Source of the DNA: Bacteroidota bacterium
GTDB lineage: Bacteria; Bacteroidota; Ignavibacteria; Palsa-1295
Direction of reading: 5' to 3'
Length of the DNA stretch: 64,000 nucleotides
NCBI GenBank assembly: GCA_030706745.1
Contig: JAUZNX010000001.1
Coordinates: forward strand, 310,001-374,000
The first letter of the stretch is position 1. Every line of letters begins with the position of its first letter. The notes under the pieces were generated by a model. The model was not told the DNA's origin. It did no database searches and saw only the letters and a program-made list of their open reading frames with translations. Both the position numbers and the translations under genes were made by a program. Positions 35,862 through 49,118 of this stretch are shown here, in pieces.

Positions 35862-36296
35862 ATGAATCCGCCAATGAGACCGCGACTTTCGCTCGATCGC
35901 GATCACACGGTGCGGGGTACGAAATTACTCGACTGGTTTTTTGCAAACCGAAAGTGGATCCGGTCCGCGAAACTGCAAGTCGTCGAGTGTTCCTGGGCGG
36001 AGCGGCCGCTTCCCGAAGGCGAAGCCTCGATCCGATTTCTCGTCCTTGCCACCAAGCGATCGTATCGGCGCGCGCACGACCGCAACCACGTTAAGCGATG
36101 GCTCCGAGCCGCCGTGACCGAAATCCCGGAATTTGTAACGTTGGAATTGAGCGCGAAAGAGCGCGAAAAGCAAATTCTCATCATGATGCGAATATCGAAA
36201 CCGCTTCCGGAAGTAAGTTGGCGGATGGTGGTCAGCGATGTCGAGCGAATAGCCGAATATCTTTCTTATCGTTCGATGAAGGGGCCGACCGCATGA
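35862..36296 (+). CDS. rnpA: Ribonuclease P protein component
   Basis: The protein is basic, with 144 residues. The family signature is the RNA-binding stretch RRAHDRNHVKRWLRAAV (RNR-type motif, about residues 68-84), preceded by FLVLATKRS. It assists the RNase P RNA in cutting tRNA 5' leaders. The ATG at 35862 is favoured; a TTG 21 bp earlier lies in the terminator stem. The stop overlaps the ispE start (ATGA). Confidence 0.88.
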   Translation: MNPPMRPRLSLDRDHTVRGTKLLDWFFANRKWIRSAKLQVVECSWAERPLPEGEASIRFLVLATKRSYRRAHDRNHVKRWLRAAVTEIPEFVTLELSAKEREKQILIMMRISKPLPEVSWRMVVSDVERIAEYLSYRSMKGPTA

Positions 36297-37129
36297 CAGG
36301 CCTCCGCGAATACATTGTGCCGTCGAAGATCAATCTCGGTTTGGAGATTCTTTCGAGGCGGCCGGATGGATACCATGAGATCAACACCGTCTTCTATCGC
36401 ACATTAGAGCCGCATGATGTTATCACGGTGAGCGATGCAGAGTTCTTCCGCATCACTTGTTCCGACCCTTCTCTCGTTGGTGAAGGCAACCTGATGTATC
36501 GCGCGGCGCACAGATTTGCGGACCAGTTTGGTTTGGAATTGCCATCGATAGAAGTCCATCTCGAAAAACGAATCCCGATGGGCGCAGGGCTTGGAGGCGG
36601 TTCCAGCGACGCGGCGACGATGTTGAGTATCTTATCCGAGTTCTCGAATGGTATTTCAGTACCGGCGGAGCTTACGGCCTCGATTGGTGCCGATGTCCCG
36701 TTCTTCTTCACCGGCGCAAAAGCGGCTGTCGCGACTGGCATCGGAGAGCAACTCACTCCGATCGATTTCGATCTCCATGCTGCGGTCCTCATCGTCCTCG
36801 ACCCAGCGATCCATGTCTCGACTCGCGAGGCATACGCCGGTCTGCGCTTGCCATTGACTCCTATCGCCACGAACTTTGCCGATTTGTTTGATGGCGCCGT
36901 GGATTTGAGTGATCTTCAAGACCATCTGCGAAACGACTTCGAAGCAACTGTCTTTCAACAGTATCCCAAGCTCTCATCAATAAAACAATCGCTGCTCGAC
37001 CGAGGCGCAGATCTCGCGCTTATGAGCGGGTCCGGCTCGGCTATCTTTGGGCTCTTCGAAGATGTCTCCGTTGCTGAAGACGCGAAGCGATGGTTTGAAG
37101 CGGATGACTTACTTGTGTTCCTCTCATAG
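36293..37129 (+). CDS. ispE: 4-diphosphocytidyl-2-C-methyl-D-erythritol kinase
   Basis: This 278-residue GHMP kinase carries out the fourth step of the MEP isoprenoid pathway. Motifs are PSKINLGLEILSRRPDGYHE (N-terminal), the ATP loop PMGAGLGGGSSDAATML (about residues 93-109) and the C-terminal LMSGSGSAIFGLF. The length is normal. The ATG at 36293 overlaps the rnpA stop. A frame extending to 36098 overlaps rnpA and is rejected. A REP-like element starts 1 bp after its stop. Confidence 0.95.
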   Translation: MTGLREYIVPSKINLGLEILSRRPDGYHEINTVFYRTLEPHDVITVSDAEFFRITCSDPSLVGEGNLMYRAAHRFADQFGLELPSIEVHLEKRIPMGAGLGGGSSDAATMLSILSEFSNGISVPAELTASIGADVPFFFTGAKAAVATGIGEQLTPIDFDLHAAVLIVLDPAIHVSTREAYAGLRLPLTPIATNFADLFDGAVDLSDLQDHLRNDFEATVFQQYPKLSSIKQSLLDRGADLALMSGSGSAIFGLFEDVSVAEDAKRWFEADDLLVFLS

Positions 37130-37130
37130 G

Positions 37131-37216
37131 GTCATTGCGAGCGAAGCGAAGCAATCCCTATCTGTCAAACCTGCGCGAGATTGCTTCGTCGCTCCGTTGT
37201 TGCGACTCGCAATGAC
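37131..37216. repeat. REP-like inverted repeat (HCERSEA type)
   Basis: GTCATTGCGAGCGAAGCGAAGC at the left (shown split as GTCATTGCGAGC and GAAGCGAAGCAATC) is answered by GATTGCTTCGTCGC and GCGACTCGCAATGAC at the right. This sequence type is widely seen in many bacterial phyla, where its translation gives HCERSEA. The element overlaps the 3' end of the aminotransferase gene. Confidence 0.88.
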
Positions 37217-38352
37217 ATGATCTGGTTTACTGACTCAATCGTCTGCTCGATGACGTAATCGATCTCTTCTTCTTTCAGCTTGGTATAGAGTGGCAGAGTG
37301 ATCGTCGAGTCGCCAATCCGTTCTGCGACAGGGAATGATCCTTCGGGTAATGCCAACTGGGTCCTGTAATAGGTCAGTCGATTGATCGAGCGGAAATTCA
37401 CTGCCACACCAATCCCACGGTCTTGCAGATCATTCAGAACTTCATCGCGAATTAATGGATCGACCCAAATCGTGAAGAGATGCCGGCCATGCACCGAACC
37501 GGGTAGGACACTTGGGAATGAAATGCCTTCGGCATTGCGAAAGCCTTCGGCATATCTCGTGCAGATCGCTTCGCGCCGTTCGAGCCGTTCAGCAAGTCGC
37601 GGGAGCTGAGGCAACAGCATGGCCGCCTGAATATCGAACATGTTGCACTTATAGCCAAGCGTCTCCATGTCGTAGTGCTTAAACCGCGCTGAGTAGCGGT
37701 CCGCAGCAGATTTGTTCATGCCGTGCTGGCGAAGCACCATGAGTTTTTCATATAGGTCCTGGTTATTAGTCGTGATCGCACCGCCTTCGCCTGATGCGAG
37801 GTTTTTTGTCGCGTAAAAGCTGAAGACCGCCATGTCGGAGAGCTCGCCCGGTCGAACGCCGTCGCGTTCGCTTTCGACGGAATGCGCGCAGTCCTCAATG
37901 ATTGCGAGTTTGTGCTTCCGCGCGATCTCGGACATTCGCCGCATGTCGCACATTTGCCCGTAGAGGTGCACCGGCAAGATTGCCCGAGTTCGGGGTGTGA
38001 TTGCCTTTTCGATTTCATCGCACGAAATATTCCCGGTTTCCGGCTCGACATCGACGAAGACGGGCTTGGCTCCGCACTCGATGATAATATTCGCGGTGGC
38101 CATGAAGGTCATCGGCGTAGTGATGACCTCATCGCCAGGGCCGATCCCGAGGGTTTTGAGTGCGATAAAACCGCCCATGGTCCAACTTGTTACGCCGACA
38201 GCATGCTCAGCGCGCAAGTACCTGGCGAATTGCGCTTCGAACTCCCGGGTTCTCGGACCCGTGGTCAAAAACGTCGAATGGATGACATCGGTCAGACTGT
38301 CAATTTCATCATCCCCAAGTGGGTGCTTGTAGAATTCAACTTTCATGGCCAA
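37165..38352 (-). CDS. DegT/DnrJ/EryC1/StrS family aminotransferase
   Basis: This 395-residue PLP enzyme of the sugar aminotransferase family acts on keto sugars of nucleotide sugars. The cofactor Lys lies in FYATKNLASGEGGAI (near residue 185). ITTPMTFMATANIIIECGAKPVFVDV and IIEDCAHSVES are typical. The product may be an amino sugar for lipopolysaccharide or glycan. The last 16 residues (SLRVATTERRSNLAQV) and the stop codon are coded by the REP-like repeat, so the original end probably lay slightly earlier. It stands alone, without other sugar genes nearby. Confidence 0.9.
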   Translation of the reverse strand: MAMKVEFYKHPLGDDEIDSLTDVIHSTFLTTGPRTREFEAQFARYLRAEHAVGVTSWTMGGFIALKTLGIGPGDEVITTPMTFMATANIIIECGAKPVFVDVEPETGNISCDEIEKAITPRTRAILPVHLYGQMCDMRRMSEIARKHKLAIIEDCAHSVESERDGVRPGELSDMAVFSFYATKNLASGEGGAITTNNQDLYEKLMVLRQHGMNKSAADRYSARFKHYDMETLGYKCNMFDIQAAMLLPQLPRLAERLERREAICTRYAEGFRNAEGISFPSVLPGSVHGRHLFTIWVDPLIRDEVLNDLQDRGIGVAVNFRSINRLTYYRTQLALPEGSFPVAERIGDSTITLPLYTKLKEEEIDYVIEQTIESVNQIMSLRVATTERRSNLAQV

Positions 38353-38766
38353 TACAACGCCCTGGCGCGCATTTGTGCTTCATGATTATTGAGCGATTCT
38401 GATTCCATCGCTAATTCCACTGCCTGTGCTCTTATCGTGGGATGTTTCAAAAGTAACCTATTATTCACTGTTACCTTTGGCTGATTGAAGTGTCCTATTA
38501 CCAGAGGCAGCGAATACACATGAATTGGCGGATGAGCGCGACGGAGTGGCAGAGCCTGACTGAACTGCCGCGATGCCGACAACTCAAAAACGGCCAAAAC
38601 GGGGTGCAAGCCGCATGTTTTAGTCTTGGCACTGTTTTCGTAGTAAATGATACCCGTACCTAAAGTTATGGCGAGAATAGAACAGATTCTTATCACCGAA
38701 TCGATCGCGGAAGCGAAGACGAAACATTGAGGCCTGATTATCGAAACAGTAGTAAGGAGTATTATT
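38353..38766. other. Intergenic region upstream of the TPR gene
   Basis: The 414 bp between divergent genes show no convincing reading frame. The minus-strand frame 38343-38801 overlaps the TPR start and has no domain. AAGGAG lies close before the TPR gene. Promoters for both directions must be here but none is obvious. Confidence 0.5.
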
Positions 38767-39300
38767 ATGAGACAGCCAAATACAGCCGGTTCTGCCGGCA
38801 CCGGCCCGGATGACCACGACGACGCGGTGCTGAAGGAGCGTGCTCAGGAATTCCTGCAGCGAGCCTACCGGCTTCAAATGTCGGGACATCTGAATGAGGC
38901 CATCGAAAGCTATAAGAAATCCATCGAGGTCATGCCGACGGCCGAAGCGCACACGTTCTTAGGCTGGGCGTTCAGCTTTTTAGGCGATTACGAGTCAGCG
39001 ATTGGCGAGTGCCGAAAGGCGATCGAAATCGATCCGGATTTCGGCAACCCCTATAATGATATCGGGGCTTACATGATCCAGCAAGGTGAGCTCGACGCGG
39101 CAATTCCGTATCTCGAGCTTGCCATGAAGGCGACTCGCTACGCCACTCCCCACTTTCCGCATTATAATTACGGACGGATTTTGGAACGTCGTGGCCTGTG
39201 GTTCGAAGCACTGCACGAGTACAAAAGCTCGCTCGATCTCGAACCGAATTACACGTTAGCCAAGGACGCATTTTACAGGTTGCAAGCACTATTGAACTAA
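38767..39300 (+). CDS. Tetratricopeptide-repeat protein
   Basis: The product has 177 residues with about four TPR motifs. A clear one is QRAYRLQMSGHLNEAIESYKKSIEVMP, followed by AHTFLGWAFSFLGDYESAIGECRKAIEIDPDFGNP and EYKSSLDLEPNYTLAKDAFY. No signal peptide is seen, so it is probably cytoplasmic and acts as a protein-protein scaffold. AAGGAG precedes the start and a strong terminator follows, so it is a single-gene unit. Confidence 0.88.
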   Translation: MRQPNTAGSAGTGPDDHDDAVLKERAQEFLQRAYRLQMSGHLNEAIESYKKSIEVMPTAEAHTFLGWAFSFLGDYESAIGECRKAIEIDPDFGNPYNDIGAYMIQQGELDAAIPYLELAMKATRYATPHFPHYNYGRILERRGLWFEALHEYKSSLDLEPNYTLAKDAFYRLQALLN

Positions 39301-39334
39301 TCGCTTCAGCAGGGTCTCTGGAGAGAGTTTGCAT

Positions 39335-39369
39335 GAGGCCGGGCACAGGGTGCCCGGCCTCTTATTTAT
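39335..39369 (+). terminator. Rho-independent terminator after the TPR gene
   Basis: An 11-bp GC-rich stem (39335-39345 with 39351-39361, loop CAGGG) is followed by TTATTTATT. Confidence 0.9.
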
Positions 39370-39422
39370 TCTCCAAAACCGAAACGATTCCAACCGGTGA
39401 TGTTCTTCTTCATCCGCGGAAA

Positions 39423-40238
39423 ATGCGTATCGAACAATTCAATCCCGAGCCAATCTGCTTGATCCCGTATCGGAAATTGGACAACGATAATGTCGTCCGC
39501 GATCATGAGTACCCGGTGTTCGAATGCCGTGCAAGCGGGTTGCCTGAGGGAATTGAAGCGATCGTCTGTACCTCTGACTTACAGGGAGTACATTCCTCGC
39601 CTGCATCGAAGCAAAATATCCTGTCGGGGGTTCACGTCGCTTCGAGCCTGCGGCAGTATTTTGAACTCCATGAGTATGCAAATCCGCAGAAGACTTTGGC
39701 GGTTCTCGCAGGGGATTTTTACACTGAACTAAATCTCGGCGGGCGCGGTGGCTTTGGATACGCGGATGAGGTGTGGCAAGCATTCGCATCGGCATTCGGA
39801 CATGTGGTGGGCGTTGCTGGCAATCACGACGATTTCAGACTGACGTTACGAGACGGTTACCCGAACCTGCATCTTTTGCATGATGAGGATCGCCGGAGTT
39901 GTGGCCTGAAGATCGACGGAATCGGGGGAATAATCGGTCACTCGACCAAACTTCCGATGCGCCACTCCGAAGCGGCATTTACGGCGATGTTCCATCGGCA
40001 GTTTGGCGCGCAACTGGACATCCTTGTCATGCACGATAATCCTGAACGCTTCGATCCGTTCTTTTCGGGACTTTCGCAACTTGCTGTGGGCACCAGCTCG
40101 CCCCCGGTCATTATCTTCGGTCACCGAAAGCTACGCGAGCCTCTCCGAGAACTGGAAAACGGCGTGCAATTACTAAGCGTGAATGAACGGGTTGTGATTC
40201 TAACCCGCGTATCAAGCTCATCGAAGGACCTCGATTAA
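39423..40238 (+). CDS. Calcineurin-like metallophosphoesterase
   Basis: The protein has 271 residues. The metal-binding motifs of the family occur in order: TSDLQG (about residue 45), LAGDFY, VAGNHDD, LVMHDNP and IFGHRK, as expected for a two-metal phosphoesterase. The substrate is unknown. The ATG at 39423 is chosen because upstream residues look non-coding and overlap the terminator. The 3' part of this gene has a second copy at 43793-43915, on the far side of the large T9SS gene, including 41 identical bases. The gene is convergent with that T9SS gene and overlaps it by 21 bp. Confidence 0.85.
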   Translation: MRIEQFNPEPICLIPYRKLDNDNVVRDHEYPVFECRASGLPEGIEAIVCTSDLQGVHSSPASKQNILSGVHVASSLRQYFELHEYANPQKTLAVLAGDFYTELNLGGRGGFGYADEVWQAFASAFGHVVGVAGNHDDFRLTLRDGYPNLHLLHDEDRRSCGLKIDGIGGIIGHSTKLPMRHSEAAFTAMFHRQFGAQLDILVMHDNPERFDPFFSGLSQLAVGTSSPPVIIFGHRKLREPLRELENGVQLLSVNERVVILTRVSSSSKDLD

Positions 40239-43200
40239 CTTCGAAATTCTTTGACGACCTTGCGACAGGCGAAGACAATAGAACCCGATAGGCAAGGTGG
40301 ATACATCGATTGTCAATTCGCCATTCAATATTCGCGCAATCTGCTCGCCCTGAACTCTTCTTCCCAGGGCATCGAACAATTCCAATTGAAATCCAGACTG
40401 TTGCGCGTAGCCCGCAATCAAGATCTTCATCGTTCCTCTCGCCGGATTTGGACTGATACTCTGAAGCTCGAAGGACCGCTTCGAAATAAAATGTGTCAAG
40501 AGCGAATCACCGCAGCCTGGGTCAAGCGTGAAGCTGACAGATGCTGGCTCAGACGAGAACGCGATACAGGAGTTCCGTGAGGATAGCGAGGAGTCCGTGA
40601 GATAGATACTCGTGCCCATCGTATCTGTTACGAATACCTTACATGTCACTCGGGCAAGCTCCGACTCCGCTACCGGATCGTAATTCGTTGGTATCGGAAC
40701 CGAGAGGTCAATGCCCGTGAAATCGAATTGCGAGATCGGTTGATTCGCGCCACCGAGATAGCTTACCAAAACGGGCGTAAGAAGATCGGTGCGTAGATTC
40801 AGCCGAAAGTTGACAGCGCGCACTCCAACTGGCAGCAGATTACCTGTGGCCAAAGCATATACGGGAACCTCGACAGTGCCAGTCGGTCCCGCCGTCAACG
40901 CCTGAGCTTTGAGATAAACCTCCAAGGAAGGAGGGTTCAGTGCAGTTGCGTACAGCGCAATGGATGTGTCGTGCTCCACGCCATTCTGACCATGGAAATA
41001 CAATCGACCATGACTAAAAGCATTGCCTGCTAATTCCGGCCGATAACGCACTCGAAGAGAATCAGTCCCTTGCGAAGGAATTGTATCACCACCAAATGGC
41101 ACCCGTTCAAACGGCGCTACTATGCCGACTAACGAGTCAAGTATGATTGCTCTGCAGCTTCCATTGGTCAGTCCGATCAGCAGACTATCAACGCCACATG
41201 CAGCGATTACGGGAGAAAATGTAAACGCTGTATCTGTAAGGCCGAGGGCAACACTTCCGCTCACAGTGAACGCTGAAAGTGGTATCGTTTTCGTACCAGC
41301 ATTTGTCGTAATGAAGAGAGTATCTCTGCTCAGGCCGTTCGGAATGTCCGAGTGGAATGATAGTGAGATACTATCATCAAAACCCGTCGGGATTGGGGTC
41401 GATGGCGATTGCGTAATCGAAAACTTGTCCCCACTCCCTAATCGGCATACAATATTCGATAGCGTGTCACAACCGACACTCGCAAGAGCAACAGAACGCG
41501 TTCGCGTTTCACATGTGGTCACTGTATCAAAGTCGAGCACCACCGGACTGATCGCAGACAATGGATTCCCGCGTCCGATGTGAATCTGTAACGCCATGAT
41601 TGTATCAAAGCCATTCGGCCCATACCTCGCATGTAACGTTACGAGCAGCGTTGTGTCACCGAGGTGCAACGCCGCTAAAGGGCTTCCTTCTGTACCTGGT
41701 AGAACACGAACTTGGAGTGAGCTGCTGTCACCAGGGTTTAGTACGATGGGCAGACGGCTCAGGAGTTCAATACCGGCTGGCAGCGAAACGGAGTCCACCT
41801 CCAGGGCACCGCACGCTGGATTCCGGATTGTGACGATGCACTGAGTGGAGTCGCACATCGCACTTGAAATCGAATTCGAGAGAAGCACAAAGGTGCGAGA
41901 ATCTGCAACTCCGGCACCTCGGACGATGATTGTATCAGTCTGATGCCGCTCGCCATCGAAATAATAGATCACGATCAGGCCGCTATCGGTCTGAGCGGTG
42001 GACGGTTTGTAGGTGATTGGAAAAACGGCCGCGCCACTATCCGGCGGGATAATATTCCTGACCGCCTTGAAAGAGAAATCCTGAACCGCTCCTGTAATTG
42101 GATGAAGAACGATGGAATCCACCACCACCTGCTGGCAGCCATGCGCAGAAAGTGAGAATGAGTCTCTTACCGATACCGGATGGCATAAGCTCTGCGTACC
42201 GAAGTCATGCAGCCGGTTACTGACGATATTGAGGATGCCGGGATTGGGAAGCACATTAAGAATCAAGTGGATGGACGTGTCTTCATCCTTCCAATCTTCG
42301 CGTCGAAGGCGCCCGTGAACCGTGATCGGATACGTGCCTGCTTTCTCCGCAATCACGTATAGCCGTGCCGTATCGGGTGATGACCCATTCGTCAACGCGC
42401 GATTCGTGAGTACTGTATAATAGCGGTTAGGCGCGATACTATCGATCGACGCAGAGTCGATCCAGACGCGGTCGCAGCCAGCAAACGAAGCAATAAACTC
42501 GAGTGAAAGGCTGTCACAAAGCGTGGTCGTGATGGTATCACTATTTGACTTCGAGAAGTTCGTCGTGATCAAAGGCAGGACGGAGGAGTTGAGCAGCCCA
42601 TCCCCTCCGTCGGTTGTTTTCCAAAGCATGCCGTCCGCCGCAAGAGCATATACGATGGCGCCGCGACCAATGACCGAATAGCTATGAACCCAGTAATTGG
42701 TCGTTGGGGACATGATGTTCTGCCAAGTCGCGCCAGCATCCGTCGTCCTCACAAAACCAGTTACACCTTCGTCGTTCTCAATGTAAACGGGAGCGCAGTC
42801 ATTGCCGGCGACGCCCTCGATTTCAGCTCCAAGACCATGCCCCCCAATCGAATCGACCTGCTGAAACGTAAGACCGTAATCCGTAGACCGCCAGATAATT
42901 GCGCCCGTTACGGTGAAGTTCTTGAAGAGATTCTGAGCCAGGAATATCGTGGACGAATTCGGCTTCATCCAGCACAAAAACCGGCTGTCCATGTTAACTG
43001 GATTTGTTGCCGATCCTCGCCGCCAGGAACTACCTGCATTCGTGGACACTGCCGTCATACCCGTGCCGACACTAGCGCCTGTCTGCAAATCAACAATCGA
43101 AAGGACTCCGGACCGGCTGCCAAGAATACCGTTCCTCGGTTGACCGCCAACACCGGGATACGTGTCAGTCCATGTTACGCCATCATTCGTACTTCGACGA

Positions 43201-43727
43201 TACACGGTCGTACTGCCGTCACTGCCACCATGCCCGTCGTTGTATGCCCAAATTGAAGCAAGCACCGTGTCACCACTGCCGTAGGCCCATTCGCATCCGA
43301 CTGAATCCGGTGTAATCCGTCTCCAAGTAGACCCGCTGTCGAGACTTTCATATATTCCCTCGCCGATCGACGCATGCCCTACACTTGCTGGGACCGGTAG
43401 CAGTAGGTGAGATGGCGATAGGAAGAACAGCTCTGCATTCGGTCCATTTTCGGAACTGTTAGGGCACGGCACCAAAACACTATCCCAGGTGCGGCAGCCG
43501 TTCCTGGTCCGATAGAACATTTGTCGAGGATTCCCGTGACCCCAACCTTGAAAAACAAAGCCATAGTCCTCGTTTAGGAAAAATACCCCTCCAGGACCAC
43601 TCCACATCGTAGGAAGAGACAGATGTTGCCAGTGTTGAGCATACACGGGTGCACCGCTGCAACTCAATAGGAGGAGCACAATCGAGAAAATGAGACCCGT
43701 CCACCGAGTTTGTATTTGAGTACTCAT
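40218..43727 (-). CDS. Large secreted T9SS-sorted protein with propeller and Ig-like domains
   Basis: The protein has 1169 residues. A signal peptide (residues 1-31, ending PVYAQ) precedes an N-terminal YCF48/BNR-type propeller region with repeated Asp-box-like turns (SLDSGSTWRR, STNDGVTWTD, TTDAGATWQN, KTTDGGDG at about 40-385). Several Ig-like domains with paired cysteines follow (about 395-960), in the manner of ASPM-SPD2-Hydin/choice-of-anchor-D repeats. A cohesin-like stretch comes before the C-terminal type IX sorting domain (LQSISPNPARGTMKI, ending RISKLIEVLR). It should be exported and attached to the cell surface or released. The gene at 60230 is a paralogue of the same length and layout. 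It lies between a metallophosphoesterase and a copy of that gene's 3' end. Confidence 0.85.
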   Translation of the reverse strand: MSTQIQTRWTGLIFSIVLLLLSCSGAPVYAQHWQHLSLPTMWSGPGGVFFLNEDYGFVFQGWGHGNPRQMFYRTRNGCRTWDSVLVPCPNSSENGPNAELFFLSPSHLLLPVPASVGHASIGEGIYESLDSGSTWRRITPDSVGCEWAYGSGDTVLASIWAYNDGHGGSDGSTTVYRRSTNDGVTWTDTYPGVGGQPRNGILGSRSGVLSIVDLQTGASVGTGMTAVSTNAGSSWRRGSATNPVNMDSRFLCWMKPNSSTIFLAQNLFKNFTVTGAIIWRSTDYGLTFQQVDSIGGHGLGAEIEGVAGNDCAPVYIENDEGVTGFVRTTDAGATWQNIMSPTTNYWVHSYSVIGRGAIVYALAADGMLWKTTDGGDGLLNSSVLPLITTNFSKSNSDTITTTLCDSLSLEFIASFAGCDRVWIDSASIDSIAPNRYYTVLTNRALTNGSSPDTARLYVIAEKAGTYPITVHGRLRREDWKDEDTSIHLILNVLPNPGILNIVSNRLHDFGTQSLCHPVSVRDSFSLSAHGCQQVVVDSIVLHPITGAVQDFSFKAVRNIIPPDSGAAVFPITYKPSTAQTDSGLIVIYYFDGERHQTDTIIVRGAGVADSRTFVLLSNSISSAMCDSTQCIVTIRNPACGALEVDSVSLPAGIELLSRLPIVLNPGDSSSLQVRVLPGTEGSPLAALHLGDTTLLVTLHARYGPNGFDTIMALQIHIGRGNPLSAISPVVLDFDTVTTCETRTRSVALASVGCDTLSNIVCRLGSGDKFSITQSPSTPIPTGFDDSISLSFHSDIPNGLSRDTLFITTNAGTKTIPLSAFTVSGSVALGLTDTAFTFSPVIAACGVDSLLIGLTNGSCRAIILDSLVGIVAPFERVPFGGDTIPSQGTDSLRVRYRPELAGNAFSHGRLYFHGQNGVEHDTSIALYATALNPPSLEVYLKAQALTAGPTGTVEVPVYALATGNLLPVGVRAVNFRLNLRTDLLTPVLVSYLGGANQPISQFDFTGIDLSVPIPTNYDPVAESELARVTCKVFVTDTMGTSIYLTDSSLSSRNSCIAFSSEPASVSFTLDPGCGDSLLTHFISKRSFELQSISPNPARGTMKILIAGYAQQSGFQLELFDALGRRVQGEQIARILNGELTIDVSTLPIGFYCLRLSQGRQRISKLIEVLR

Positions 43728-43753
43728 GTTACTGCCCTCTAATCGCGAAGCCC

Positions 43754-43783
43754 AGCGCCCCCCGAATGATTCCGGGGAGCGCT
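43754..43783. terminator. GC-rich hairpin upstream of the large T9SS gene
   Basis: AGCGC and CCCCCGAA face TTCCGGGG and GCGCT in a near-perfect stem. No T-run follows on either side. It lies between the T9SS gene start and the phosphoesterase fragment, and could be an old terminator or part of a repeat. Confidence 0.4.
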
Positions 43784-43792
43784 GAAGTGCCC

Positions 43793-43915
43793 CTCGCCGT
43801 CTTCGGTCACCGCAAACAGCCCGAGCCGCTCATCGGGCTTACGAACGGCGTGCAATTACTAAGCGTGAATGAACGGGTTGTGATCGTCCGGCGTAAAAAA
43901 GACGGCGCGATGTGA
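43793..43915 (+). pseudogene. 3' fragment of a metallophosphoesterase gene (duplicate)
   Basis: Read in frame this gives VFGHRKQPEPLIGLTNGVQLLSVNERVVIVRRKKDGAM and a stop, matching the end of the phosphoesterase at 39423-40238 (IFGHRKLREPL, then NGVQLLSVNERVVI). Bases 43844-43884 are identical to 40158-40198. The catalytic 5' parts are missing, so it is a remnant of a second copy. Confidence 0.85.
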
Positions 43916-43936
43916 CGTTGCGCCCTCGAGTCTTCT

Positions 43937-44947
43937 CTATGGTACCGCAATCGGTACGACCTGAATATCAAACGGATACCCGCCGGAATTGCGCAAGTAG
44001 GCGGCACGATCTCCATTCGGAGAAAGCACAACTGCCAGGGCACTGCTTGCGACTGCATTCCGATTGCCGGTCTGCGGATTCAATGCATAGAGCGTATATG
44101 GGTTCTGGGTACCACCGGAGATGTATGCGATGAGATTCGCCGAAGTGGTGACATCCATTGCCTGCACGGTATCGTGAACGACTGCAGCGGTCCTCATGCC
44201 AGTGGCAAGATCGACACGATCGATGCTTCCAGAATCATCGTACACGAACAATGCATTCGCTTGTGGGGCGTAGCCGCTTTGGTGATACGCAACCAGCGCC
44301 TCCGGGATCGTACTCTTGACGGTGCCCAGCGTATCATAGATTCTCACTTCATAATGCCGGAGTGAATCCCGAGCAGAGAATGCAAACGATGCATCATCGA
44401 GCCATAATGCGCGCGAATCGAACACGCCATTGAGGGTTGGCTGGCACACTTCCCGGATGGGGCTCGAGGAAATATCATAGACAAACGCAAACCTGGTCCC
44501 GGACTCACCAATCGGCGGTGTTTCGGTACAGATCAGATACTTCATGCCGGGCGAGACACCGAGCAGATTTTGATTCGAGATGATGTTCGTCGCGGTATTC
44601 GACTGAAGATCGACTCGATAAATGTTAATGCCGACTTGTGTGATTGCATATCGGCCATTCTTCGAAATGAAGATGACATTCGGATAACTGCTCTGAAGCA
44701 TTTGCTGGTCGGGCATACTGATTTGACTGCCGATCGTGCCATCGGCACCGACACGAAAGAGTCCGCCGGTCGTCGAAGTCGTGCCGGTGGTTGCGTCCTG
44801 GGTCTGTCGCTGAATGATGGCGAGCATTCCCGATTGATCCGGAAGCCATGCGACTTCGTTGACGACCTGAAGGGTTGTCAGAGTAGAGGTGGAATCGCAG
44901 CCGGCCACGCCGAATGCAAAAAGGAGAATGGTTAATGACCGCTTCAT
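43937..44947 (-). CDS. TolB-like propeller lipoprotein, unknown
   Basis: The protein has 336 residues. The lipobox VAGC (Cys17) follows a short signal peptide. Repeating WD/PD40-like stretches are visible: VNEVAWLPDQSGMLAII, VIFISKNGRYAITQVG, ALWLDDASFAFSARD, VVLSPNGDRAAYLRN. These fit a six- or seven-bladed TolB-type propeller. It is probably an envelope protein with a binding role; the partner is unknown. Confidence 0.78.
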   Translation of the reverse strand: MKRSLTILLFAFGVAGCDSTSTLTTLQVVNEVAWLPDQSGMLAIIQRQTQDATTGTTSTTGGLFRVGADGTIGSQISMPDQQMLQSSYPNVIFISKNGRYAITQVGINIYRVDLQSNTATNIISNQNLLGVSPGMKYLICTETPPIGESGTRFAFVYDISSSPIREVCQPTLNGVFDSRALWLDDASFAFSARDSLRHYEVRIYDTLGTVKSTIPEALVAYHQSGYAPQANALFVYDDSGSIDRVDLATGMRTAAVVHDTVQAMDVTTSANLIAYISGGTQNPYTLYALNPQTGNRNAVASSALAVVLSPNGDRAAYLRNSGGYPFDIQVVPIAVP

Positions 44948-45100
44948 AGTACCATTGCAACACCGTTGCTTGTCAAAAAAATTGTCGGAGCCTTGGTTTT
45001 ATTCCGATTTCGCAGACTTGCATAGTTCGATTCTGCAGCAATATTATACCAATCTCACGAATCTCGTTAAATTATGGCTCGAACAGTGTATTTTTGTATC

Positions 45101-46087
45101 ATGCACGCGATTATTCCCGTTGCCGGATTCGGCACGCGGCTCCGGCCGCACACCTATAGTCAGCCGAAAGTCCTGCTCAATGTGGCCGGACGGCCCATCC
45201 TTGCCCACATCCTGGACCGGCTTGTGGCCAGCGGCATTACAAGCGTTACCATCATCGTCGGTTACATGGGCGATGCGATCGAAGCGTATGTCCGCAAGAC
45301 GTATCCCAATTTGAAATCGGATTTTGTCGAGCAAACCGAGTTGAAGGGCCTTGGCCACGCGATTTGGATGGCGCGCGAACGGATTCCTTCGGATGGTTCG
45401 CCGCTTTTTATTGTGCTTGGCGATACGATCTTCGAAGCCGATCTCGATGCGGTATTCAAGTCACCGACAAGTTCGCTGGGGGTCTTTTGGGTCGAGGACC
45501 CGCGGCGCTTTGGCATTGTCGAACTCAAAGATGGATTCGCCACCAAACTCATCGAGAAACCTGAGAATCCTACGACGAACCTGATGGTGGCGGGCCTCTA
45601 TTTCTTTCGTAATCCCGCGCTTCTGCGGCAATGCCTCGATGAGTTGATCGAGAAGAATATTCGGACTCGCAACGAGTATCAACTCACCGATGCGCTGCAA
45701 TTGATGGTCGAGCGCGGTGAGAAGTTCTCGACCTTCGAACTCAAAGGCTGGTACGATTGCGGGAAGCCGGAAACACTGCTGAGTACAAACCGGCATCTGC
45801 TGAAATCCGGCACGCAGGTTCGGCCCGAAACCCGGAACACCGTAATTGTCGAGCCGGTCTTTATCGCACAGAGTGCGCAGATTGACGACTCGATTATCGG
45901 GCCGTTCGCAACGATTGGCGGTGGGGCACGAATCAAGAATTCTATCGTGCGTGACTCGATCGTCGGGGAGGGTGTACGCATGAACGGTGTTGTCATCGAA
46001 CAGAGCCTCGTCGGTAACAACTCATCTATTACTCGGGCCGCATCACGTATCAATATCGGGGATTGCTCCGAGATCGAACTTCCGTAA
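45101..46087 (+). CDS. Sugar-1-phosphate nucleotidylyltransferase with hexapeptide C-terminus
   Basis: The protein has 328 residues from the ATG at 45101 (the frame begins at 45074). The N-terminal signature is PVAGFGTRLRPHTYSQPKVLL. FIVLGDTIFEADL and AGLYFFRNPALL fit the glucose-1-phosphate thymidylyl/uridylyltransferase group. From about residue 255 a left-handed beta-helix of hexapeptide repeats (IDDSIIGPFATIGGGARIKNSIV) ends the protein. The nucleotide and sugar are not certain. It makes an NDP-sugar for envelope glycans and is followed 31 bp later by the DUF885 gene. Confidence 0.88.
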   Translation: MHAIIPVAGFGTRLRPHTYSQPKVLLNVAGRPILAHILDRLVASGITSVTIIVGYMGDAIEAYVRKTYPNLKSDFVEQTELKGLGHAIWMARERIPSDGSPLFIVLGDTIFEADLDAVFKSPTSSLGVFWVEDPRRFGIVELKDGFATKLIEKPENPTTNLMVAGLYFFRNPALLRQCLDELIEKNIRTRNEYQLTDALQLMVERGEKFSTFELKGWYDCGKPETLLSTNRHLLKSGTQVRPETRNTVIVEPVFIAQSAQIDDSIIGPFATIGGGARIKNSIVRDSIVGEGVRMNGVVIEQSLVGNNSSITRAASRINIGDCSEIELP

Positions 46088-46118
46088 TGCTTGCGTAACG
46101 CTGGCCGATTATTATTCC

Positions 46119-47759
46119 ATGCTTAAGGCGCGACACTTTCACGATTTTGCCGATTTCCGCGATCACGTCCTCGCGACGTATCTCGCATATTATCCAACGC
46201 TTGCCTCCTGGCTCGGGCTGCATCAATACGATTCGGTTGTCGAAGATTTTAGTCCTGCCCGAAGGGAAGAATACCTTGCGACGCTGCACGAAGCGAAAGA
46301 AGTGCTGCTCAGCAAGCATTTCGCCGACAAGCCGGATAAGACGACGCATTTCGAGTGCCGCGCGCTCGAGTGGAAGATCAACGACGAGATCTTCCGGATG
46401 ACCGAACTCAAAGACTACGAGTGGAATCCGATGGTCTACAACGAGCAGTTGGAGATCATGCACCTGATCGACCGCGATTTTGCACCGGCGGCCGAGCGCA
46501 TGCGGGCCGTGCTTGCGCGCTTGCGTTCCTATCCACGCGTGCTTGCCATTGCGAGGCAAAACCTCCGCCGGAACATGGACCGCACGATCGTTGAGACGGG
46601 ACTCATGGCGCTCGAAGGACGGCTCTCCTATCTCGATCAGGTCCCGGAGTTAATCTTCGGGGAGATCAATAATCCCGAGCTCATCGAAGATCTGACGCAT
46701 GCGATCCAGACCGCGAAGCTTGCCATCACGAGTTTTGCTGAAGCCGTCCGCACCGTCGTGCTGCCGCATGCGATGTACGACTCCTTCCGGTTAGGCCCTG
46801 ACTTGATGGCGCGGTTTGTCAAGTCGAGTGAACTGGTAACCGAATCGCTCGACTCACTGCTCGATAAAGGCCGCCGCGAGATGGACCGGCTCACCGTCGA
46901 ACTCTACAAAGCCAGCGCGGAGTTGGATGCAACGGCGAACCCGCGTGAAGTCTTTCACACATTTGTGGAGACCGAGCACTTCAATGAGCAGACGCTGCTG
47001 AAGGAAGTCGAGCAGATGCTCGAACGCATTCGCACGTTCGTCATCGCGCACAATATCGTCGCGATGCCCTCGGAAGTGCGATGCAAGGTTGAGGAAACAC
47101 CGGCGCACATGCGCTGGGCGTTCGCAGCGATGAACTCGCCTGGCGCGTTCGAGCGCGTTTCAACAGAAGCGTTCTACTACGTCACGCTGCCGGAAGCAGA
47201 GTGGGACGCAGAGAAGCGCAAAGAGTTTTTGCACACACTCAATCGCTCGGTGCTCGAAGTGATTTCGATACACGAAGCGTATCCGGGACACTACACGCAC
47301 TTCCTGCATTTGCAGAACATCCAGAGCAAGGTCGGCAAGGTGTTTCAGTCGTATGGCTTCATCGAAGGCTGGGCGCACTATACTGAAGAGATGATGCTGA
47401 ATGCCGGCTGGGGCCAGGGCGATCCGCGCATTCGCATGGCGTACCTGCACGAGGCACTCGTGCGGATCTCGCGCTTTGTCATGGCGATCGAACTCCACCG
47501 CGGCACGATGACGCTCTCCGAAGGACAGCAACTCTTCGAGGAAAAAGCACTCATGCGTCCCATGGCCGCGCGCCGCGAAGCCGAACGCGCCGTCTTCGAT
47601 CCCGGCTATTTATTCTACACGCTCGGCAAATTCCAGATCCGCGAACTCCGCGAGCGCATGGAGAAGCTACCCGGATTCTCCCTCTTCGATTTCCACAACG
47701 AACTCCTGAGCTACGGCTCCGTGCCCATCAAGATCATTGCGGAGATGATGGGGGGATAA
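46119..47759 (+). CDS. DUF885 family putative metallopeptidase
   Basis: The protein has 546 residues from the ATG at 46119. The family motif SIHEAYPGHYTHFLHLQ (HExxPGH type, near residue 388) gives the predicted metal site. Later AHYTEEMMLNAGWG and PGYLFYTLGKFQI are also conserved in the family. No signal peptide is seen, unlike many relatives, so it may be cytoplasmic. The substrate is unknown; a peptidase role is inferred. The frame extends upstream to 45987 over the previous gene and is not used. Confidence 0.88.
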   Translation: MLKARHFHDFADFRDHVLATYLAYYPTLASWLGLHQYDSVVEDFSPARREEYLATLHEAKEVLLSKHFADKPDKTTHFECRALEWKINDEIFRMTELKDYEWNPMVYNEQLEIMHLIDRDFAPAAERMRAVLARLRSYPRVLAIARQNLRRNMDRTIVETGLMALEGRLSYLDQVPELIFGEINNPELIEDLTHAIQTAKLAITSFAEAVRTVVLPHAMYDSFRLGPDLMARFVKSSELVTESLDSLLDKGRREMDRLTVELYKASAELDATANPREVFHTFVETEHFNEQTLLKEVEQMLERIRTFVIAHNIVAMPSEVRCKVEETPAHMRWAFAAMNSPGAFERVSTEAFYYVTLPEAEWDAEKRKEFLHTLNRSVLEVISIHEAYPGHYTHFLHLQNIQSKVGKVFQSYGFIEGWAHYTEEMMLNAGWGQGDPRIRMAYLHEALVRISRFVMAIELHRGTMTLSEGQQLFEEKALMRPMAARREAERAVFDPGYLFYTLGKFQIRELRERMEKLPGFSLFDFHNELLSYGSVPIKIIAEMMGG

Positions 47760-47876
47760 GCTACCATTCGGAATCGATGCCATCCTCGATTTCGAGCACC
47801 TTTAGCGGTTTCGTGCCCGGCGAGGCTCCTTTTATGCTTCTCTTACAACCATTCCGAGTAAGGTGCATTACTCGCG

Positions 47877-49118
47877 TCATTCCTTGACCAATTTCTTCGT
47901 CACGACTCCTTGAATTGAGGCGATTCGTATGTAATAGGTTCCGGCGGGGAGCATCGAGAGATCGACCGTCGCATCGGGCGCCTTCAGCGTGCGGATCGTC
48001 TCGCCCAGGATATTCATGACGCTCATATTCGCGTTCGCCGGGACGCCCTGCAATGCCACGAAACCCTTCGTTGGGTTCGGGGTGACTTGGATCGGCACAA
48101 GCGGCAGGACGGAGACGGCGGCATCGTTGATGTGCATGATCGAGTTGGGCGGAGCATTCGAATAATCGAAGGTCAGGCTCGGGCAGGCAAGCTTCGTCGC
48201 ATCCGTTGAGACACTCGCACCATCCGCATAAATGACGTAACTCCCGGAGCTGGCGTACATGGCTCCTGGCTTCAGATAGACGACGTTGCACGATCCACCG
48301 GTGACCGTCGCTCCGGCTTCCGCGAAAATCGTATCGAATATGCCGCCGCTGACCGAGACACCGGGGTTCACCCATACGGATCGATTAGCCCACTTGTTCA
48401 AATCCTGGTCCGCACTCGCAATGTTCGCATAGTAAGGAATGATGGGGTCGGTGCAATCAAAGACATTAATATGGAAGATATCAGAAACCGAACATCCACC
48501 GGGAGCGACCGCCCGAACCGTCACGGTCTTCTGTCCTGCGGCCGAATACATGGTGGTTGGGCCGAAAAGATCCCAGTGCGTTATTGTAGAGGAGGGGTTC
48601 GAGTTCGCACCAAAGTCCCAATAGATCACAGCGTCTTGTTTCAAACCATTACTCATGTCAAACTGGATTTGGGAATTCACCAAACCGGCATTTCCGCAAG
48701 GTGAATGGATGTAAAGCTGACCCGGCGATTCCGCGATGTTCACATCTGTACCATTATCCGCGCTGACGGTGTAGGGATTTGCCGCCATCACACGGAATCG
48801 GTAATTGCCCGAAGCAAGCGCATCCGGAGGAATGGCTGAAACAATCGTGAATGTACCAGGAAGGGTATCAATGAGCGATCCGATATTCCTGAAATTCGGG
48901 GTGAGAAAGCTGCCTCCTGCGTCTGAAAGCTGGAAGGTGAATGCGTTTTTGTGTAACCACGTCCCAGTTGCCGTGAACGTGATTGAGACTGGATCGCCCG
49001 CGCAGAATTGCGTTCCGGAGACCGAATTGATGGTGAGCGTTTGCGCGCGAAGAGCGCTCGGCACCGAAAGCCACGAAATTGCGAAGAGAAGCGAAAAGAC
49101 GATACTAATCTGTTTCAT
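47877..49118 (-). CDS. Secreted protein with T9SS C-terminal sorting domain and PKD-like region
   Basis: The protein has 413 residues from the ATG at 49118. A signal peptide (MKQISIVFSLLFAISW, ending ALRAQ) is followed by beta-sandwich repeats with the PKD-like feature YWDFGANSNPSSTITHWDL and AAGQKTVTVRAVAPGG. The C-terminus (IQVTPNPTKGFVALQGV, ending VTKKLVKE) is the type IX sorting domain. It should be a secreted or surface protein of unknown ligand. The frame extends upstream to 49301, but these residues precede the signal peptide. Confidence 0.85.
   Translation of the reverse strand: MKQISIVFSLLFAISWLSVPSALRAQTLTINSVSGTQFCAGDPVSITFTATGTWLHKNAFTFQLSDAGGSFLTPNFRNIGSLIDTLPGTFTIVSAIPPDALASGNYRFRVMAANPYTVSADNGTDVNIAESPGQLYIHSPCGNAGLVNSQIQFDMSNGLKQDAVIYWDFGANSNPSSTITHWDLFGPTTMYSAAGQKTVTVRAVAPGGCSVSDIFHINVFDCTDPIIPYYANIASADQDLNKWANRSVWVNPGVSVSGGIFDTIFAEAGATVTGGSCNVVYLKPGAMYASSGSYVIYADGASVSTDATKLACPSLTFDYSNAPPNSIMHINDAAVSVLPLVPIQVTPNPTKGFVALQGVPANANMSVMNILGETIRTLKAPDATVDLSMLPAGTYYIRIASIQGVVTKKLVKE

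Follow-up and report, generated by a model that had tools for sequence, protein, structure and literature searches.

This locus holds a calcineurin-like phosphoesterase gene (PE), a large T9SS-cargo gene convergent with it and, beyond that, a short stub that matches the end of PE. The explanation that we favour, and to which we would give about an even chance, is that a unit made of PE and the T9SS-cargo gene displaced most of a resident PE, of which the 3' stub is what was left, and that a short gene-conversion tract now joins the histories of the two 3' ends. Three observations underlie this explanation: the stub has the homology and reading frame of a PE end, the match between the two passes sharply from diverged to identical sequence, and in a congener the site is empty.

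Layout of the locus

The window (the whole 64-kb stretch of DNA that was analysed) lies on contig C1 of a genome of 3.81 Mb in 30 contigs. Its features around PE are as follows.

38767-39300, + strand: TPR-repeat gene of the left flank, with TPR Pfam matches
39335-39361, + strand: terminator-like hairpin 3' of the TPR gene (consensus scan, inverted repeat), with a counterpart hairpin at the empty site of the congener G001
39423-40238, + strand: PE, intact, 271 aa, from ATG at 39423 to TAA at 40238 (PF00149, phrog_1649, homologue in G003)
40114-40198, + strand: left copy of an 85-bp repeat, in which the final 41 bp (40158-40198) do not differ from the right copy
40218-43727, - strand: large T9SS cargo gene, 1169 aa, Por_Secre_tail (TIGR04183, PF18962)
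43753-43784, no strand assigned: G+C-rich hairpin between the T9SS gene start and the stub (inverted repeat; fold z -4.67)
43793-43915, + strand: the stub, a 5'-truncated PE remnant (homology to PE and to the G003 PE)
43844-43884, + strand: right copy of the 41-bp identical tract (sequence comparison)
43937-44947, - strand: right-flank gene, 336 aa, 71% identical in G001, where it adjoins the TPR gene

As a preliminary description of this DNA had it, the T9SS gene stands between PE and the stub on the opposite strand, its ORF running from 43727 to 40218. It is convergent with PE, and the 3' ends of the two genes overlap by 21 bp. The stub agrees with the end of PE in strand and reading register and closes with a TGA stop codon at 43913-43915; its ORF may begin at ATG 43766, which would make it 49 aa long. 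The hairpin at 39335-39361 is the left limit of the extra DNA, and the 336-aa gene to the right has no Pfam or NCBIfam match at E <= 0.001. The hairpin at 43753-43784 is strong, lies just upstream of the T9SS gene start without a T run, and is present as a single copy in the window (allowing up to 3 mismatches).

The shared repeat and the ancestry of the stub

PE and the stub share an exact 41-base direct repeat (40158-40198 and 43844-43884), which is set in an in-frame match of 85 bases (40114-40198 and 43800-43884; 82% identical). This is the longest exact direct repeat within the window, and in 30 order-2 Markov simulations of the window the longest chance repeat was 17 bases; the agreement in sequence, frame and strand, with 41 identical bases, that had been reported for the stub and the end of PE is thus confirmed. 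The two copies are spaced 3686 bp apart, an interval that holds the T9SS gene and little else. PE DNA finds only two places in its own genome at E <= 0.001, PE and the stub, and a DNA query covering 43728-43936 returned the two repeat copies and otherwise only short matches (E 0.05 or worse) from 12 relatives and the own genome. Elsewhere in the window there are exact inverted repeats of 32 bp (between 52090 and 59690) and 19 bp (between 37140 and 52251), all four perhaps copies of a dispersed repeat; an ORF at 37047-37220, overlapping the repeat at 37140, reads VIASEAKQS-like. The stretch 304-1290 contains many internal exact direct repeats, several of them spaced 150 bp.

Identity between PE and the stub is distributed unevenly, at 29 of 44 positions and then 41 of 41 (Fisher p = 1.6e-5), and directly past the 41-bp tract it falls to 11 of 40. 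Had the T9SS gene recently inserted into a single PE, with a target duplication of about 85 bp and later divergence of the stub or of the PE end, a direct repeat would be expected at both edges of the insert, as is seen; a distance of 19 bp separates the left repeat from the T9SS stop codon. However, such an event does not sit well with 15 changes in 44 bp against none in 41 bp, with a stub whose frame is open and carries G003-like residues that PE lacks, or with the lack of a recombinase domain in PE, the T9SS protein and five other block ORFs of at least 90 aa. A recent copy or target-site duplication is disfavoured by the uneven divergence, and we regard this origin as improbable.

The only close PE found outside this genome, that of G003, provides a third sequence for comparison. 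In the 44 bp beside the tract, PE and the stub differ at 15 sites, PE and G003 at 14, and the stub and G003 at 12, a short comparison in which 12 and 14 differences do not separate stub-G003 from PE-G003. Twenty-five of these sites are common to all three sequences, while 7 are shared by the stub and G003 only, 5 by PE and G003 only and 4 by PE and the stub only, with 3 different in all. The 41-bp tract has 30 sites common to all three and 11 shared by PE and the stub only, with no other class. Two-way sharing in the 24 bp that precede the 44 is again mixed (7 sites stub and G003, 6 PE and G003, 3 PE and stub), and in the 15 bp past the tract the corresponding counts are 2, 4 and 1. At third codon positions PE and the stub differ at 8 of 15 outside the tract and at 0 of 13 inside it, where G003 differs from each of them at 7 of 13. 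Because G003 varies at these positions, constraint alone does not explain the identity of the tract; recombination or conversion does.

PE, the stub and G003 are therefore about equally distant in the 44 bp, and PE and the stub are nonetheless identical in the tract, a combination that makes the stub look like the end of a PE lineage that separated long ago, with a tract homogenised later. On these site patterns, the stub probably represents the 3' tail of another PE lineage, an old one, rather than a fresh copy of the adjacent PE, and the tract at the two 3' ends was probably homogenised after the lineages had split; the age suggested for the stub lineage is an estimate from a short sample. 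The preliminary description had called the stub a copy of the PE 3' end. That it is a PE 3' end, and not a random match, stands; a copy made by recent duplication does not agree with 15 differences in 44 bp outside the tract, a divergence like that between PE and G003.

Protein comparisons point in both directions. The translated stub ORF (43766-43915) shares 72% identity with the G003 PE across 39 aa and 65% with the adjacent PE across 40 aa, and so is closer to G003 in spite of the homogenised tract, which is included in all stub-neighbour protein identities; this favours displacement. Against it, the shorter query (43793-43915) finds the neighbour (75% over 32 aa) and G003 (74% over 35 aa) equally close, and in the 15 bp past the tract PE shares more sites with G003 than the stub does (4 vs 2). 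The frame of the stub is still open, and its translation carries G003-like residues that are absent from PE. Two weak stub-like protein matches in one stretch of G003 were dropped as chance. The first falls within the ORF of a T9SS protein, where the PE end matches at 44% (E 0.044) and the stub at 41% (E 0.17); the second lies elsewhere (31%, E 0.80).

The same divergence pattern and homogenised tract would be expected if two old tandem PE paralogues had stood here, the T9SS gene had inserted between them, the second had lost its 5' part and the 3' ends had undergone gene conversion. Concerted evolution of paralogues is common, and the option raised earlier, that one copy was mostly deleted, amounts to this history. 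This history, with an old tandem paralogue that decayed, explains the data almost as well as displacement does and is its close rival. However, genomes with two full PEs, which the preliminary description suggested seeking, number none among 391 class genomes, and the history needs gain, duplication, insertion and truncation. We consider it rather unlikely.

That the stub is instead a functional small gene of 49 codons' worth of protein is very improbable. Its frame has been retained, but it consists only of the last ~40 residues of PE, has no Pfam match, and drew no stub-only match from the 61 or the 391 genomes searched. Nor do relatives contain a conserved separate short gene in its place: the PE protein matches only two of the 391 at E <= 0.001, namely the own genome and G003, whose PE is full-length, and in G001 the flanking genes have nothing between them.

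The site in relatives and the genes of the block

The TPR gene is present in 7/7 genomes of the genus searched (85-90% identical in 6 congeners, 88% in G001). In G001 it is convergent with and adjacent to the 336-aa gene (71%), and the gap lacks PE, the T9SS gene and the stub alike; the stop codons of the two are 58 bp apart there (L039, 1440-1497) and 4636 bp apart here. When the window flanks are joined together they align to G001 across the site, counterpart hairpin included, and neither PE nor the stub has a match at E <= 0.001 in that genome, which is 97% complete. As the flanks are adjacent there without an insert, the whole block of ~4.6 kb is either a lineage-specific gain or a loss in G001. 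In G002 to G006 the two flanking genes sit on separate contigs, and in the stretches beside the TPR gene no other window ORF was matched (ORFs of at least 110 aa, window 25000-62000, E <= 1e-8). With G001 empty and the flanks of G002-G006 split, no relative was found in which this site is occupied by an intact resident PE. Likewise, no PE-T9SS unit was found elsewhere in the genomes searched, so that donor and ancestral states are both missing.

In the comparison of synteny that had been proposed, G001 does lack the T9SS gene, but it lacks PE and the stub as well, so its empty site was not made by the 41-bp repeat. Loss of the T9SS gene through this repeat, as suggested earlier, is possible in principle and is predicted to remove 3686 bp and shorten the open PE frame to 268 aa; none of the genomes compared shows such an event. 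It is a long shot that the tract is an active recombination joint, at which a 3.7-kb T9SS-cargo cassette is lost, and perhaps gained, while the PE frame stays open with its tail switched. If it were, this environmental bacterium would have a reversible secreted-protein cassette, and sequencing reads by themselves would be enough to reveal loss of the secreted protein.

PE scores 24.4 bits against PF00149, above the gathering cut-off of 21.5, and matches the phrog_1649 metallo-phosphoesterase. The metal-ligand motifs of calcineurin-like phosphoesterases are usually DxH, GD, GNHD, H and GHxH. GD, GNHD and the late H are present in PE, and in both PE and its 59% identical homologue in G003 SDLQ takes the place of DxH and GHRK that of GHxH; a distant relative in G429 likewise has SDLQ. 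A match to PADLOC PDC-S10 (E 5.9e-5) may, at a guess, reflect a shared fold. By sequence PE has no match in the PDB at E 0.1, and its structure model (mean pLDDT 36) was left unused.

At E <= 0.001 the PE protein occurs in 2/61 genomes and in 2/391 class genomes, the same two in each case (the own genome and G003), and a search of genome contigs gave one locus, that of G003. A phylum sample of 395 yielded, besides the own genome, one distant match in another class (G429; E 1.5e-15), too distant for DNA comparison, and G003 was not among the matches. There was no match on phages or plasmids at the limits used, and none in IMG/VR viral contigs at limits that reach close relatives only. As it is this rare, and in G003 stands in full next to other genes than here, PE is an accessory gene.

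The T9SS protein has a C-terminal sorting domain (TIGR04183, 29 bits, cut-off 23; PF18962, 34 bits, cut-off 27) and is one of a large and diverse family, for which 37/61 genomes, own included, gave matches. Among the candidates scored (at most 11 per genome, for the own genome out of 135 first-look candidates), the nearest were 46% identical in the congener G001 and 42% on contig C3 of the own genome, and a recent duplicate was rejected as its origin on these values. BLAST gave 39% for an own paralogue and 44% for a congener.

No tRNA and no Rfam match was found in 36000-48000, and no recombinase domain in PE, the T9SS protein, the stub or the five other block ORFs of at least 90 aa; a Pfam scan of the last six proteins gave no matches. 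With the repeat in two places only, a site-specific integrative element was rejected. The spacing of 3686 bp, which takes in the T9SS gene and little else, and the open 268-aa PE frame that recombination between the repeats would leave by arithmetic are what would be expected had a DNA circle that carried the 3' end of a PE along with the T9SS gene integrated here, through a single crossover or site-specific recombination, with the 41-bp tract acting as an attachment-like site. We think this quite improbable, given that no tRNA or recombinase domain was detected, that homology reaches beyond the tract and that the genome has only the two places. The composition of PE is unremarkable (125/127 composition windows at least as distant), and that of the block (7/60) and of the T9SS gene (10/121) is mildly distant; the block is not clearly foreign, which also counts against displacement.

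Proposed displacement of a resident gene and its parallels

For displacement speak the contrasting site patterns of the 44 and 41 bp, the third codon positions, the empty site in G001 and the accessory distribution of PE. Under this explanation, a second PE lineage would once have occupied the gap from the TPR gene to the 336-aa gene. Another PE allele and its convergent T9SS-cargo gene would then have been acquired at the site as a unit, displacing the resident except for its last ~120 bp, probably via recombination in which PE homology served as the anchor on one side, with a non-homologous join on the T9SS side. Short gene conversion would have homogenised the 41-bp tract at the two 3' ends, later or in the same event; this order, the copy that acted as donor and the mechanism of recombination are all proposed from sequence comparison.

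The stub is probably ordinary debris of a past gene swap in an environmental bacterium. The locus illustrates how, in a little-studied group, accessory genes are swapped in where conserved genes leave a gap, and it carries a caution: when a truncated tail lies next to a full gene, the tail is not necessarily copied from it.

Remnants of displaced genes are described in the T6SS effector/immunity arrays of Vibrio cholerae, for which homology-facilitated illegitimate recombination has been proposed, a mechanism that the paper itself calls putative (PMC5361080). There, as may have happened here, an incoming unit with a homologous anchor on one side displaces the resident, and the downstream part of the old unit remains. 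Unlike those arrays, the present locus has a single enzyme-gene stub, no toxin-immunity locus and a homogenised 41-bp tract, and its mechanism is our own proposal. Rhs loci, whose orphan 3' regions are mentioned in the same paper, similarly have leftover 3' ends downstream of an active gene (PMC5361080), although here there is neither a conserved 5' part with an exchanged tip nor a toxin-immunity pair. Finally, a short homogenised tract between diverged copies resembles gene conversion between duplicated genes (PMC3924818), with the difference that one partner here is a truncated remnant.
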